Source of the DNA: Anaerosoma tenue
Lineage (GTDB): Bacteria > Actinomycetota > Coriobacteriia > Anaerosomatales > Anaerosomataceae
Direction: 5' to 3'
DNA length: 64,000 bases
NCBI RefSeq assembly: GCF_023161965.1
Contig: NZ_JALNTY010000001.1
Location: 310,001-374,000, forward strand
Under the pieces are notes generated by a model, which ran no database searches, was not told the origin of the DNA, and saw only the letters and a program-made list of their open reading frames with translations. The translations under genes were made by a program, and so were the position numbers. Below, piece after piece: positions 58,382 through 64,000 of the stretch (its first letter is position 1; the number at the start of each line of letters is the position of its first letter).

Positions 58382-58715
58382 GCATCCCGTTATCCCTGCT
58401 CAGGCGGTGCGTCTCTCTTGACGTGACATAGCCCTCCCGAGTACGATTGCCACGGCAAATGCGATCGAGACGCTCCGATAGACGTCGGGCGTGTCGTGTG
58501 GTTCTTCAGTGAGATGAAGTCGGCACCGCCTCGAAAGGGGTCGGTGCACGTATCGTATCCATAGACGAACCGAACTCTATCGTATCTGCCGGGCGGTCGT
58601 GCCCGGCGCTCCGGTTCCAAGGGTAGGGGTATACCCTCCGGGCACCAGGTGCACCGTTCGTTCGCCAACAAGACGATGGACAACGCACCGATACCCGGAA
58701 GGGAGGGCACGCCCG
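58382..58715 (+). other. 334-base gap: rny promoter and predicted structured leader
   Basis: No credible gene is seen on either strand. It holds a promoter at 58418-58447 and, downstream, a series of predicted hairpins: 58470-58492 (8 bp with one bulge), 58523-58547 (outer 6 bp, GCACCG/CGGTGC), 58588-58607 (7 bp, GCCGGGC/GCCCGGC) and 58620-58637 (6 bp). A small 4-bp hairpin at 58642-58652 follows. I recognise no known riboswitch class. Confidence 0.6.
58418..58447 (+). promoter_or_regulatory. Candidate rny promoter
   Basis: TTGACG at 58418-58423 and TACGAT at 58442-58447 are separated by 18 bases. Transcription would start near 58454 and give a leader of about 262 bases, unusually long for this compact region. 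Confidence 0.55.
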
Positions 58716-60248
58716 ATGGGACCCGTCATCTATGCACTTCTCGGACTCGTCATCGGCGTCGTCCTCGGCATAGTCATCAACCGCTTCATCATCGCCGGCA
58801 AGACCACCCGCGCTCGCGAAGCCGCGGAACGGCTCCTCGCCGATGCAGAGAAGCAGGCCGAGACGACCCGCAAGGAGATGCTCCTCGAGGCGAAGGATGA
58901 GATCCTCCGCCTCAAAGGCCAGGCAGAAGAAGAGGCCAAGGAGCGGCGCAAGGAGCTCGGCGCGCTCGAGAACAGACTCCTACAGCGCGAGGAGTCCCTC
59001 GACCGACGCACCGACTCGCTCGACAAGCGTGAACACCAGATGTCGAGCCAGGCGGGACAGATCATCAAGAGGGAGAAGGAGCTCGAAGACGCCATCGCCG
59101 ATGAGAAGGCGCGGCTCGAGTCGCTCGCTGGAATGACGACAGAGGAAGCCAAGTCGGTGCTCCTTGAGCGCGTCAGGCAGGACGTGTCGCATGATTCGGC
59201 CATGATCGTCCGCGAGGCCGAACAGCGCGCCCGTGAGGAAGCCGACCGCAAGGCCCGCAACATCATCGGGATCGCTATCGGTCGTGTCGCCGCCGATCAC
59301 ACCGCCGAGTCGACCGTCTCGGTCGTCCACATCCCGTCGGACGACCTCAAAGGCCGCATCATCGGTCGCGAGGGTCGCAACATCCGCGCGTTCGAACAGC
59401 TCACCGGGATCAACCTCATCATCGACGACACCCCTGAGGCGGTCATCCTCTCGAGCTTCGATCCTGTGCGGCGCGAGGTAGGACGCATCACGCTGGAGAA
59501 CCTCATCGCCGACGGCCGGATCCACCCGGCGCGGATCGAAGAGATGTTCAAGAAGGCAGAGCAGCTCGTGGACCAGCAGGTGTTCGAGGCTGGAGAGCAG
59601 GCGGTGTTCGACACCGGCGTGCACAACCTCCACCACGACATCGTGCGCACCCTCGGCCGGCTCCGCTATCGCACGAGCTACGGCCAGAACGTCCTCAACC
59701 ATTCGCTCGAGGTCGCATACCTGTCAGGCGTCATGGCGGCTGAACTCGGACTCGATCCCGCGCTCGCAAAGCGCGCCGGTCTTCTCCATGACCTTGGCAA
59801 GGCCATCGACCACGAGATCGAGGGCCCGCACGCCGTCATCGGCGCCGACCTCGCCCGTAGGCTTGGCGAGAACAAAGAGGTAGTCCACTGTATCGAGGCT
59901 CACCACGGGGACGTCGAACCCCAGACCGTGGAAGCCGTCATCGTTCAGGCGGCGGACGCCATTTCCGCCGCCCGCCCCGGCGCTCGGCGCGAGACGCTCG
60001 AGAGCTACATCAAGCGTCTCGAGAAGCTGGAGTCGCTCGCCGAGTCCCACAAGGGCGTGGAGAAGTCCTACGCCATGCAGGCTGGTCGCGAGATCCGTGT
60101 CATGGTCAAGCCCGAGGATGTATCCGATGCCGACTCCACGCTCATGGCGCGCGACATCGCCAAGCAGATCGAGGAGGAGTTGCAGTACCCGGGCCAGATC
60201 AAGGTCATGGTCATCCGTGAAAGCCGGGCAGTGGAATACGCCAAGTGA
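58716..60248 (+). CDS. rny: Ribonuclease Y
   Basis: Membrane-anchored endoribonuclease that initiates mRNA decay. The 510 residues have an N-terminal membrane anchor (about 2-24), a long coiled coil (about 30-200), a KH domain ([10 protein letters not shown], about 213-222) and an HD domain with H358 and D359 in [10 protein letters not shown] 58716 follows AAGGGAGGG. Its neighbours differ from Firmicutes: instead of ymdB a GHKL ATPase gene follows. The strong palindrome at 60287-60314 may end its transcript. Confidence 0.96.
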
Positions 60249-60286: not shown

Positions 60287-60314
60287 GTGAAGGGACCGCA
60301 TGCGGTCCCTTCAC
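60287..60314 (+). terminator. Perfect 28-base palindrome after rny
   Basis: Both 14-base halves match exactly, so RNA could form about 12 bp around a four-base loop. It lies 38 bases after the rny stop and is followed by TCTTGAG. A smaller 6-bp hairpin (60256-60261 with 60275-60280) precedes it. It may be a terminator or, being perfectly symmetrical, a binding site for a dimeric regulator. Confidence 0.55.
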
Positions 60315-60335
60315 TCTTGAGAAGGAAGGCCTGCC

Positions 60336-60368
60336 GTGGCACCCTTGGTGAGCGATGAGCGAACATGA
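60336..60368 (+). other. Ten-codon upstream ORF overlapping the ATPase start
   Basis: GTG 60336 with the strong site GAAGGAAGG at 60319-60327 opens a ten-codon frame (MAPLVSDERT) that stops at 60366-60368, 13 bases into the ATPase gene. The ATPase ATG at 60355 itself has only a weak site (GGTGAG). This could couple translation of the ATPase to the upstream ORF. It is inferred from sequence alone. Confidence 0.35.
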
Positions 60369-61431
60369 CCCTCTGATAGATTTCGTCACTAACGTGTCGG
60401 GCGATGGCTACCTCAAGGTCGAGGAGAGCCTCGGTGACGGCTACGTTCGCCTCCGGGTACCCGAGGCTGAACGGCGTCAAGCGAAGCACGATATCCGAAG
60501 CGTAGAGGACATCGTCGTCGAGCTTCTCCGAAACGCACGCGATGCCCACGCCCAGCGGATATTCGTCGCCACCACACGAGAAGGCTCCACCCGCACCCTG
60601 ACGATGATCGATGATGGTGTGGGTATCCCGCCAGCGCTGCAGGACACCGTCTTCGAACCGCGGGTCACGTCCAAGCTGGAGACCATGGTGATGGACCGAT
60701 GGGGAGTCCACGGGCGCGGAATGGCGCTCTACTCCGTCCGATCCAACGTAGTGAGTGCCCGGGTCGCATGCTCGTCGCCGCACAAGGGCGCGTCCATCTC
60801 CGTCATCACCGATTCCGAGCGGCTCACCGAGCGCGCCGATCAGTCCACATGGCCCACGGTCGAGCCCGACGAATCCGGGAGACTCCATGTTGGGCGCGGG
60901 CCGCACAACATCATCAGGCGGCTCGTGGAGTTCGCGTGCGAGCACCCCGAACTCGAGATCTACCTCGGCACTCCCACAGAGATCCTGGCCACCCTGCACT
61001 CCCTTGGGCGGATGCAACTGGACATAGCGGACCTGATGTTCTGCGAGGACCTGGAGCGCCTGGTGGTCTGGCAGCGCCCCGCGGCGTGTTCCGATGCAGC
61101 GGAGCTCACCGCCATCGCGGACACGATCGGGCTGACGGTATCCGAGCGGACGGCGCACCGTGTCCTGGCAGGGGAACTCGCCCCGCTCGAGCCGATACTT
61201 GCGACGCTCGCGGTGGCCGACGAGCCCGAGAAGTCCTCTGCGCCGGACATCTACCGTGACCGCCGCTCGCTCCGCCTTCACCACGATGACCTCGTCGCAT
61301 TCCGTGCGGAGCTCACCCGCGCCTTCGACGTGATCGCCGAGCGTTACTACGTCAGCCTGAGAGGCGAACCGCGCATCACCGTGGGACGCGACTCCGTGAA
61401 CGTGCGGTTTCCGATAGAGAAAGAAGACTGA
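60355..61431 (+). CDS. Stand-alone GHKL ATPase with MutL-like motifs
   Basis: A 358-residue protein with one recognisable domain, a GHKL (Bergerat-fold) ATPase at about 40-165. The N-box ELLRNARDA has E56, N60 and D63; G1 is DDGVGIP at 86-92; G2 is GVHGRGMAL at 117-125. EPRVTSK at 101-107 resembles the TSK motif of MutL more than a histidine kinase. There is no HisKA, sensor or membrane segment. Residues 170-358 are helical with no match I recognise. ATG 60355 is forced by an in-frame stop at 60349. It lies between rny and spoVS; function unknown. Confidence 0.85.
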   Translation: MSEHDPLIDFVTNVSGDGYLKVEESLGDGYVRLRVPEAERRQAKHDIRSVEDIVVELLRNARDAHAQRIFVATTREGSTRTLTMIDDGVGIPPALQDTVFEPRVTSKLETMVMDRWGVHGRGMALYSVRSNVVSARVACSSPHKGASISVITDSERLTERADQSTWPTVEPDESGRLHVGRGPHNIIRRLVEFACEHPELEIYLGTPTEILATLHSLGRMQLDIADLMFCEDLERLVVWQRPAACSDAAELTAIADTIGLTVSERTAHRVLAGELAPLEPILATLAVADEPEKSSAPDIYRDRRSLRLHHDDLVAFRAELTRAFDVIAERYYVSLRGEPRITVGRDSVNVRFPIEKED

Positions 61432-61494: not shown

Positions 61495-61599
61495 CCAGTC
61501 ACACACGGCCCGCGGCGGCCGCGCAGCCGAATCAGACCATAAGACGCACCAGTGACCACACAAGCGATCGTAGACTCTATCCGCAGCACGGGAGGCGCC

Positions 61600-61875
61600 G
61601 TGGAGGTTCTCAAGGTATCCACCAAGTCGAGTCCCAACTCTGTTGCCGGCGCGCTCGCCGGCGTTATCCGCGAGCAGGGTTCAGTGGAGATCCAGACCGT
61701 GGGGGCCGGCGCGCTCAATCAGGCCGTCAAGGCCATAGCGATCGCCCGGGGCTTCGTGGCTCCAATGGGGCTCGATCTGATCTGCACACCAGCCTTCGCC
61801 GATATCGAGATCAACGGCGAAGAGCGTACCGCTATCCGCCTCCTTGTGGAGCCCCGGCAGCCCCACCATCTGTAG
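61600..61875 (+). CDS. spoVS: Stage V sporulation protein S
   Basis: Small Alba-like protein that affects sporulation and cell division in Bacillus and occurs also in non-sporulating lineages. The 91 residues match SpoVS from the first residue: EVLKVSTKSSPNSVAGALAG, then GAGALNQAVKAIAIARGFVAP and the C-terminal ERTAIRLLVEPR. GTG 61600 is chosen since GGGAGG precedes it and the family starts here; an in-frame GTG at 61552 lacks a ribosome binding site. It sits near the WhiG-like sigma factor only in the broad sense (40 kb away). Confidence 0.93.
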   Translation: MEVLKVSTKSSPNSVAGALAGVIREQGSVEIQTVGAGALNQAVKAIAIARGFVAPMGLDLICTPAFADIEINGEERTAIRLLVEPRQPHHL

Positions 61876-61881
61876 GACCGT

Positions 61882-62715
61882 ATGCCCAAGCCGGATCTCC
61901 ACCTCCACTCGACCTTCTCCGACGGACTGCTCGCGCCCGAGGAGATCGTTGCGCTGGCGATTCAAGCCCATCTGCCGGCGATCGCCATCACCGACCACGA
62001 CTGCATCGACGGCGTCGAACCTGCGCAGTCCGCTGCGGCCGGCACGGGTCTGCTGGTCATACCAGCGGTAGAGCTGTCGGCTACCCACGGCGGCCGCTCG
62101 CTGCACATACTCGGCTACCACATCGACATCACGTCAAAGCGGCTCCGTGCACGGCTGGCAGACCTCCGTTCGGCCAGACTTGAGCGTGCTCGCAGTATCG
62201 TCGACGCCCTTCGTGCCGACGGCTACGAACTCGATCCCGACGACATATTGCGGCCTTCCAGCGAAGGCGCGGTCGGCAGGGCGCACATCGCCCGACGGCT
62301 CGTCGAACAAGGTGTCGCCCGCGACATGGACGACGCCTTCCGCCGTTTTCTCGCCGACGATGCGCCGTACTACGTGCCCAAGCCGTCCACTCCTGCGGAG
62401 GCTGCCATCTCCTGGGTGATCGAGTCGGGAGGCGTTCCCGTCCTGGCGCACCCGGGACTCAGCCGGGTGGACGACCTCATCCCCGCACTGGTAGACCACG
62501 GACTCGCGGGACTGGAGGCGTACCACGCGTCCCACGATCCCGGCACGGCGACACGCTACGTTGAGATGGCCGAGCGGTACGGCCTCATCGTCACCGGCGG
62601 CTCCGACTTCCACGGATCCGAGCGCGAGGGTGGGCCCATCGGCTCCTCGGGCGCTCCGGATGATGCGATCCGCCGTCTCGAGGCGGCCAGCATCCGGCGG
62701 GAGGGGTCGCGATGA
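61882..62715 (+). CDS. PHP-domain phosphoesterase (RNase AM / TrpH type)
   Basis: Metal-dependent phosphoesterase of 277 residues. The PHP ligands are visible: H7, H9 and D14 (DLHLHSTFSD), D38-H39 (ITDHD), E64, H75, H135, H190 in LAHPG, and D242 and H244 in GGSDFHG. The inserted segment 90-190 with GRAHIARRLVEQGVA is typical of the YciV/TrpH group, whose members act as 5'-3' exoribonuclease on short RNAs and nucleoside 3',5'-bisphosphate phosphatase. ATG 61882 lies six bases after spoVS, and the miaB ATG overlaps its stop. Confidence 0.9.
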   Translation: MPKPDLHLHSTFSDGLLAPEEIVALAIQAHLPAIAITDHDCIDGVEPAQSAAAGTGLLVIPAVELSATHGGRSLHILGYHIDITSKRLRARLADLRSARLERARSIVDALRADGYELDPDDILRPSSEGAVGRAHIARRLVEQGVARDMDDAFRRFLADDAPYYVPKPSTPAEAAISWVIESGGVPVLAHPGLSRVDDLIPALVDHGLAGLEAYHASHDPGTATRYVEMAERYGLIVTGGSDFHGSEREGGPIGSSGAPDDAIRRLEAASIRREGSR

Positions 62716-64000
62716 GCCGCTACATCATCCACACGTTCGGATGCCAGATGAACAAGCACGATTCCGAGCGGATGGCGGGCCTGCTGGAAGCCGCGGGCCA
62801 CGTTCGCGCGCCCTCCAACGATGAGGCCGATATCATCGTCTTCAACACCTGCGCGGTCCGGGAGACCGCCGACGACCGCCTCTACGGGCAGGTGGCGTCG
62901 CTGAAGGCGCTCAAGACAGGGGGCCGCCCGGACGTCCTCATCGCGGTGGGCGGCTGCGTCGGACAACGGGATGGCGAGCGCATGCTGCGCGAGCTTCCCC
63001 ATGTCGATGTCGTGTTCGGCACGCACACCATCCACGAGCTGCCATCGCTGCTCGACGCCGCCGCCTCGGGTCGTCCGCTCGCCAGTGTCGCCGAGGAGAC
63101 CGACCGCTTCGCAAGCGATCTGCCTTCCGTACGCGAACACCGGTGGCACGCCTGGGTGCCGATCACCGTGGGGTGCGACAACCATTGCTCGTACTGCATC
63201 GTGCCGTACGTCCGTGGCCCTGAGCGGAGCCGCCGCTTCGAGGACGTCGTGACAGAGGTCGCGTCACTCGCTGCGGACGGCGTCGTCGAGATCACCTTGC
63301 TCGGACAGAACGTCAACTCGTACGGGCGTGACCGCTATGGCTCGCCGCGTTTCGCACAACTGCTCCATGCGGTCGCCGACACGGGCATGCAACGGATCCG
63401 ATTCGCCACCAGCCACCCGAAGGACCTCTCCAGCGAGACCATCGAGGCCTTCGCTTCGATCCCGTCACTCATGCCGTACCTGCACCTGCCGGTGCAACAC
63501 GGCTCCAACCGGATACTCGCGGCGATGAACCGAGGCTACACCAGAGAGCAGTACCTCGAGCGCATCGACCGCCTCAGGGACGTGGTCCCCGGGATCGCGT
63601 TGTCAACGGACATCATCGTGGGCTTCCCCGGCGAGACGGATGACGACTTCGAGCAGACGCTCGACCTGGTAGAGCGTGTGGCATACGACCATGCGTTCAC
63701 GTTCATCTACTCACCGCGTGAGGGAACACCGGCTGCGGTGCTCACCGATGCTGTGCCCCGCGACGTCGCACAGTCCCGTTTCGACCGTCTGGCCACATCG
63801 GTGCGGTCGCTGTCCCTCGCGTCGAACGAGCGCGCAGTGGGTGAGGCCGTCGATTGCCTGGTGGAGGGGCCATCGCGTCGTGACCCGCGCGTGCTCTCGG
63901 CGCGAACACCTCACAACCGGCTGATCCACGTGCCGCTACCAGTAGGGGAGACCGCCGCAGAACACGCGGGTTCGGTGGCACGGATCCTCATCACCGGAGC
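62712..64000 (+). CDS. miaB: tRNA-2-methylthio-N6-dimethylallyladenosine synthase MiaB (3' end missing)
   Basis: Radical-SAM methylthiotransferase acting on A37 of tRNAs. The visible 429 residues begin YIIHTFGCQMNKHDSERM and have C11, C47 and C82 for the auxiliary cluster and CDNHCSYC (C155, C159, C162) for the radical-SAM cluster; LLGQNVNSYG and FPGETDDDFEQT are typical. The frame is still open at the right edge within the TRAM domain, so probably little is lost. ATG 62712 overlaps the PHP stop. miaA and mutS commonly follow. Confidence 0.96.
   Translation, partial: MSRYIIHTFGCQMNKHDSERMAGLLEAAGHVRAPSNDEADIIVFNTCAVRETADDRLYGQVASLKALKTGGRPDVLIAVGGCVGQRDGERMLRELPHVDVVFGTHTIHELPSLLDAAASGRPLASVAEETDRFASDLPSVREHRWHAWVPITVGCDNHCSYCIVPYVRGPERSRRFEDVVTEVASLAADGVVEITLLGQNVNSYGRDRYGSPRFAQLLHAVADTGMQRIRFATSHPKDLSSETIEAFASIPSLMPYLHLPVQHGSNRILAAMNRGYTREQYLERIDRLRDVVPGIALSTDIIVGFPGETDDDFEQTLDLVERVAYDHAFTFIYSPREGTPAAVLTDAVPRDVAQSRFDRLATSVRSLSLASNERAVGEAVDCLVEGPSRRDPRVLSARTPHNRLIHVPLPVGETAAEHAGSVARILITG

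Follow-up and report, generated by a model that had tools for sequence, protein, structure and literature searches.

A conserved GHKL ATPase encoded beside rny in Anaerosoma tenue and its relatives: a possible accessory factor of RNase Y

The gene at 60355-61431 (+) of the window (the whole stretch of 64,000 nucleotides of Anaerosoma tenue DNA that was analysed) is an ATG-started ORF encoding a GHKL ATPase of 358 amino acids. Its sequence places the protein in a conserved GHKL family that is present in single copy and retains an intact ATP site of the MutL type. By gene order it is tied more tightly to rny, the gene of RNase Y, than to any other gene. The preferred explanation, rated somewhat below an even chance, is that the ATPase may assist or regulate RNase Y in an ATP-driven manner. 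In many bacteria RNase Y initiates the decay of mRNA; neither RicA nor RicF, its partners in Bacillus, is found in these lineages. If the explanation is true, the ATPase is an energy-driven partner of RNase Y, a kind not described in the literature searched, where no paper joining RNase Y and GHKL was found. As a near-universal single gene it would provide a handle for testing the control of decay in gut genera (Collinsella) and environmental relatives.

The gene and the motifs of its ATP site are as follows.

60355..61431, + strand: GHKL ATPase gene (P0001), recognised by ORF, Pfam and conservation in relatives.
60463..60495, + strand: family signature EAERRQAKHDI (residues 37-47), just ahead of the N-box helix; E37 and R41 in 150/150 aligned sequences, R40, Q42 and D46 in 146/150.
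60520..60552, + strand: N-box ELLRNARDAHA (residues 56-66) with catalytic-type Glu56, Asn60 and Asp63; E56 in 149/150, N60 in 150/150, D63 in 149/150.
60610..60630, + strand: G1 box DDGVGIP (residues 86-92); D86 and G90 in 150/150.
60667..60675, + strand: TSK motif (residues 105-107); T105 in 150/150, S106 in 146/150, K107 in 145/150.
60703..60729, + strand: G2 box GVHGRGMAL (residues 117-125); G122 and L125 in 150/150.

These positions agree exactly with those given in the first-pass annotation (N-box E56/N60/D63, G1 at 86-92, G2 at 117-125, TSK). The alignment comprises 150 rows (149 unique orthologues and the window protein). Residues E37, R41, E51, N60, D86, G90, F100, T105, G122, L125, Q163, N185, S263, R265 and R269 are present in 150/150 rows; E56 and D63 are near-invariant. 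The N-box is of the catalytic type (ExxxNxxD), with Glu and Asp as in MutL, GyrB and Hsp90. Pfam assigns residues 46-151 of the window protein to HATPase_c (3.2e-10) and HATPase_c_3 (1e-6), and gives no match to residues 160-358 or anywhere past residue 151. Membership of the GHKL superfamily follows from the N, G1 and G2 boxes and from HATPase_c, which is matched by 40/40 members. The gene is conserved in 97 of 99 relatives, which rules out a chance ORF. It occurs as a single copy in the window's own genome, where the next match has an E-value of 0.009.

The AlphaFold2 model of the protein (pLDDT 88.5) is a Bergerat alpha/beta sandwich, and only GHKL proteins stand among its top structural matches. 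The best is MutL (B. subtilis MutL 9n2k; Z 14.6, rmsd 3.9, 162 residues), closely followed by topoisomerase VI and GyrB. The best solved relative found by a profile of 40 orthologues is Aquifex MutL (8.6e-10, residues 47-150), against 1e-4 for the best histidine kinase and a weak 1.4e-3 for MORC2. The initial description as an uncharacterised GHKL ATPase nearest MutL, its C-terminal half without assignment, is thus upheld by profile, fold and Pfam. With the MutL N-terminal ATPase the protein shares the ELxxNxxDAxA N-box, TSK, the RGxAL G2 box and a helix-strand after the lid, where NIIRRLVEFACEHPELEIYLG occupies the place of MutL's own. Unlike MutL, it has no C-terminal endonuclease or dimerisation domain and is linked to rny; an S5-type second domain is not seen. 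It scores 34.7 bits on the curated MutL model (TIGR00585), whose cut-off is 180. The protein had also been described as single-domain; in the model it consists instead of the GHKL core, a helical domain predicted with confidence at residues 207 to 286 or thereabouts, and an alpha+beta C-terminal tail of small size.

60907..60972, + strand: helix and strand closing the GHKL core (residues 185-206, NIIRRLVEFACEHPELEIYLGT), where MutL has a helix-strand; N185 in 150/150, weak alignment to MutL 163-195, part of it spanned by the MutL fold match.
60973..61212, + strand: helical domain (residues 207-286) with the motif GLxxSERxAxRILxGEIxPL (259-277), a possible helix-turn-helix; S263, R265 and R269 in 150/150, pLDDT 85-98 for the greater part, resemblance to HTH at no more than Z 3.7.
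61276..61428, + strand: C-terminal long helix and small beta element (residues 308-358), from the predicted model.

From about residue 207 to 331 the model contains helices only, and the S5-type (transducer) domain is not seen. Modelled by itself, the C-terminal part reaches a pLDDT of 89.4. Its fold search against the PDB gives no match under E 1.3; VIA-align gives Z of at most 3.7, the weak rows being often helix-turn-helix proteins. For this predicted part, the lack of a PDB match names no fold and does not prove a new one.

The neighbouring genes in the window, RNase Y, SpoVS and the PHP enzyme among them, are as first annotated.

58710..60248, + strand: rny, RNase Y (N-terminal membrane segment, coiled coil, KH, HD), the constant neighbour on the upstream side; TIGR03319 8e-224.
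61552..61875, + strand: spoVS, frequent but inconstant neighbour; PF04232 1.3e-37, in 21/30 carriers and 4/20 non-carriers.
61882..62715, + strand: PHP-domain gene, inconstant neighbour, from neighbourhood comparison.
62712..64000, + strand: miaB, truncated at the end of the window, usually found downstream, from neighbourhood comparison.

The general order of the locus is recA-(recX)-rny-ATPase-(spoVS)-(PHP)-miaB. The gene directly upstream of the ATPase is rny in 188 of 189 loci, the sole exception being a contig end. The gap between them has a median of 36 bp, and many gaps in relatives of the Coriobacteriales and Eggerthellales measure 1-15 bp. Among 43 neighbourhoods compared, rny always lies within 542 bp of the ATPase and recA-recX upstream in most loci; in two loci (L035, L038) recA is not upstream despite about 7 kb available, and rny is retained. 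Downstream, miaB is close in most loci, is 5.5 kb off in L193 and does not occur within 6.5 kb in L095. Many of the 43 neighbourhoods are without spoVS, and the PHP gene is absent from most other Coriobacteriia lineages. Survey of relatives, suggested at the outset as the check, therefore reveals a conserved locus and not a stray gene, and the lack of conservation that would have spoken against the annotation did not occur. The "rny-spoVS slot" stands on its rny side; spoVS is missing from 9/30 carriers. The PHP gene, proposed as a member of the same unit, is not a constant partner either.

The ATPase is found in 72/72 relatives of the class with at least 90% completeness and at most 5% contamination. 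Across Actinomycetota 154 of 396 sampled genomes match it, a few only weakly, and presence clusters by family: it occurs throughout several deep families and is absent from many others. Among the matches listed, the named records that hold the closest copies belong to Coriobacteriia, and nearly all of the best 80 matches of a genome scan are labelled Coriobacteriia or Actinomycetota. In one family (f33; L089-L092) the protein is shortened to about 300 aa and divergent, and still adjoins rny. This form is without the N-terminal 20 residues and its G2 box is altered (HGAG or lost); by these changes its use of ATP may differ from that of the rest of the family.

Co-occurrence was counted in 50 genomes (30 carriers of the ATPase, 20 non-carriers). 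RNase Y scores above the curated cut-off in 30/30 carriers and 12/20 non-carriers, and the ATPase occurs in 0/8 genomes without RNase Y (Fisher p 2e-4, uncorrected for shared ancestry; the counts are non-independent, since related genomes share it). The 12 non-carriers demonstrate that RNase Y can work without the ATPase. No diverged copy was found with the family profile at the rny loci of these non-carriers; the next gene after rny there is the PHP gene, miaB or a different member of the block. In two such loci (L189, L191) the spoVS gene adjoining rny lies on the opposite strand.

In the window's family the rny-ATPase gap contains a hairpin and a promoter-like signature.

60287..60314, + strand: 28-bp perfect palindrome (GTGAAGGGACCGCATGCGGTCCCTTCAC), a terminator-like hairpin without a T-run, read directly from the sequence.
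60317..60322, + strand: probable -35 box TTGAGA of the ATPase's own promoter; CTTGNG invariant in 11 aligned gaps.
60337..60345, + strand: probable extended -10 (TGG-CACCCT), 17 nt from the -35, its end lying 9 nt upstream of the ATG; in TGnCAnnCT the T, G, C, A, C and T do not vary among 11 aligned gaps.

An equivalent hairpin is present in 10/10 close relatives aligned and is weakest in L012. It is followed, at 60317-60345, by an invariant TTGAGA-17-TGGCACNCT-like signature 9 nt (10 or so in some relatives) before the ATG. The gene in this family probably has its own promoter; a generic promoter scan does not flag the box at 60317..60322. The mRNA is probably leaderless, because the -10 ends 9 nt ahead of the ATG. 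In Coriobacteriales and Eggerthellales the ATPase is very probably co-transcribed with rny, the gap being so often 1-15 bp.

Many other Anaerosomatales possess a different arrangement of the gap: a -10-like box, then GGCTACCAGYCATG (with invariant GGCTACCAGnC), then a GC-rich hairpin.

L126:5899-5977, L025:1403-1482, L028:1387-1465 and 15 further loci of alignment A3, + strand: conserved gap element.

A model of this element gives 21 strong matches in 62 genomes, one per genome and 21/21 in the rny-ATPase gap, a count that is partly by construction, several training sequences being from the same 62 genomes. No strong second copy occurs anywhere in the 62 genomes. Rfam gives nothing at gathering score in the window and nothing on the element, which is absent from the window's own genome. 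It is a candidate small RNA or leader.

In Bacillus the gene between rny and spoVS is ymdB. YmdB holds the same slot as the ATPase and is an unrelated metallophosphodiesterase. The ymdB family (TIGR00282) is absent from 27/30 carriers, is located elsewhere in the genome in 3, and is never found in the ATPase slot. To call the ATPase a replacement of ymdB, as the early comparison implies, is loose, and the idea is rejected: the family is absent from most of the phylum.

As an accessory factor of RNase Y, the ATPase would work as follows. Like MutL, GyrB and Hsp90, the protein would close into a dimer on binding ATP, through the N-terminal segment that precedes the N-box, and would reopen on hydrolysis. 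The helical C-terminal domain would contact RNase Y or its RNA, and the ATP cycle would thereby control the assembly, substrate choice or activity of RNase Y. Accessory factors are a known kind of part, because RNase Y of Bacillus is steered by bound partners (PMC10470536). The job would be comparable to that of the Bacillus RicA-RicF-RicT specificity factors (PMC10470536), unrelated proteins, in lineages without RicA and RicF: the Com_YlbF family (RicA/RicF) is found in 0/30 carriers. This explanation is favoured by the near-constant linkage to rny, the co-occurrence with RNase Y, the clean absence of the ATPase from the rny loci of non-carriers, the lack of RicA/RicF in carriers, the conserved ATP-site residues and the nearness to MutL in profile and fold. 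Against it, all ties are of gene context, and the adjacency could be inertia of an old, slowly rearranging recA-to-miaB block. The probable own promoter in the window's family also weighs against it, as do the 12 non-carriers with RNase Y, which are without RicA/RicF as well, and the distance correlations, which do not single out rny: with RecA controlled for, the mirror-tree comparison gives partial correlations of 0.54 (rny) and 0.61 (miaB) and is uninformative as a discriminator between the two. A bolder form, held with less confidence at roughly a one-in-three level of belief, is that RNase Y has here a cofactor of a new class, in which an ATP clamp resembling that of MutL is joined to a novel C-terminal domain. 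It would make RNA decay ATP-dependent or ATP-sensing across the deep-branching Actinomycetota; in Anaerosomatales a small structured RNA transcribed from the rny-ATPase gap might take part as well.

Two other explanations are unlikely, and about equally so. The ATPase may be a DNA-side factor, a MutL-like ATP clamp acting with RecA/RecX or in MutSL-independent repair, adjacent to rny only through the old recA-rny-miaB block. The nearness of its core to MutL and the recA-recX genes upstream in most loci are consistent with this, and 17 of the 18 carriers tested, G000 among them, have neither MutS nor MutL, which leaves room for a substitute. The same absence, to which G109 (family f33) is the one exception, makes a part in mismatch repair unlikely and disfavours the DNA-maintenance role offered by the first-pass annotation. 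G109 has full MutS and MutL and still has the ATPase, whereas G099, G100, G105 and G115 are without both MutS and the ATPase. Against a DNA-side factor stand also the two loci that keep rny without recA, and the fact that MutL's next domain and nuclease domain are not seen.

The ATPase may, with similarly low probability, be an ATP switch of a general or chaperone-like kind without specificity for RNase Y, for example one that assembles several of the cluster's products or an RNA-decay complex bound to the membrane. Protein remodelling by GHKL dimers is known from Hsp90, miaB is close downstream in most loci, and distances track miaB as well as rny. Against this, gene order ties the ATPase most tightly to rny, and Hsp90 gives no match in the profile search.

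Less probable still is a nucleic-acid-binding regulator, with a genuine helix-turn-helix as its helical domain and a role in controlling transcription, e.g. of rny. The motif at 259-277 resembles LacI/Xre-type HTH by eye, which is a possible lead and not a result; many weak structural rows are HTH proteins (Z 2-3.7), and single weak Pfam HTH matches occur (E 0.06-0.2). Every HTH score is below significance, however, and the phylum-wide invariance of S263, R265 and R269 suggests a fixed partner and not varying operators.

The least probable of the rivals, by a little, is a signalling protein that descends from a histidine or serine kinase (HK, RsbW/SpoIIAB type) and has a phosphorylation target, for instance SpoVS. 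In Pfam the best model is HATPase_c, the window sequence alone scores the RstB HK model (1.1e-9) much like the MutL model (9.1e-9), and the GHKL fold and an IFEPRVTSK stretch resembling the HK F-box are shared with these kinases, but the N-box is ExxxNxxD with Asp63 and not of the HK type (no Glu/Asp at 56/63), the best HK is about five orders weaker than MutL in the family profile, MutL ranks first by fold, no kinase dimerisation/phosphoacceptor domain was found (no HisKA-type (DHp) match in 40 members at E 0.1), and RsbW/SpoIIAB HATPase_c_2 (PF13581) matches only 1/40 members (E 0.056). SpoVS, missing as it is from nearly a third of carriers, is not an obligate target and is rejected as a partner. 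A histidine-kinase origin, the alternative named at first, is thus contradicted by the N-box, the profile ranking and the absent phosphoacceptor domain, and no characterised histidine kinase or anti-sigma kinase proved to be a close homologue.

MORC/paraMORC proteins (PMC2292703) likewise include prokaryotic GHKL ATPases that stand alone, keep the ATP motifs and carry a C-terminal part of their own. They are GHKL+S5 proteins, patchy, horizontally moved and linked to restriction-modification (PMC2292703), whereas the ATPase is near-universal in its class and occupies one fixed locus. An S5 domain is not seen in its model. The 43 neighbourhoods examined show a housekeeping cluster and no restriction-modification linkage. 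A defence gene is rejected: PADLOC gives no match, none of the phage records searched carries the gene, and one viral contig has a 30% partial match. The only plasmid record with the ATPase is a 900-kb Collinsella aerofaciens "plasmid" (L212, NZ_OY725717.1) holding the housekeeping cluster. It contains rimO, recA, rny and miaB and looks like chromosome sequence mislabelled as plasmid. Its copy (WP_271759152.1) is annotated in RefSeq only as "ATP-binding protein", a bare label to which the hypothesis of a partnership with RNase Y can now be attached.
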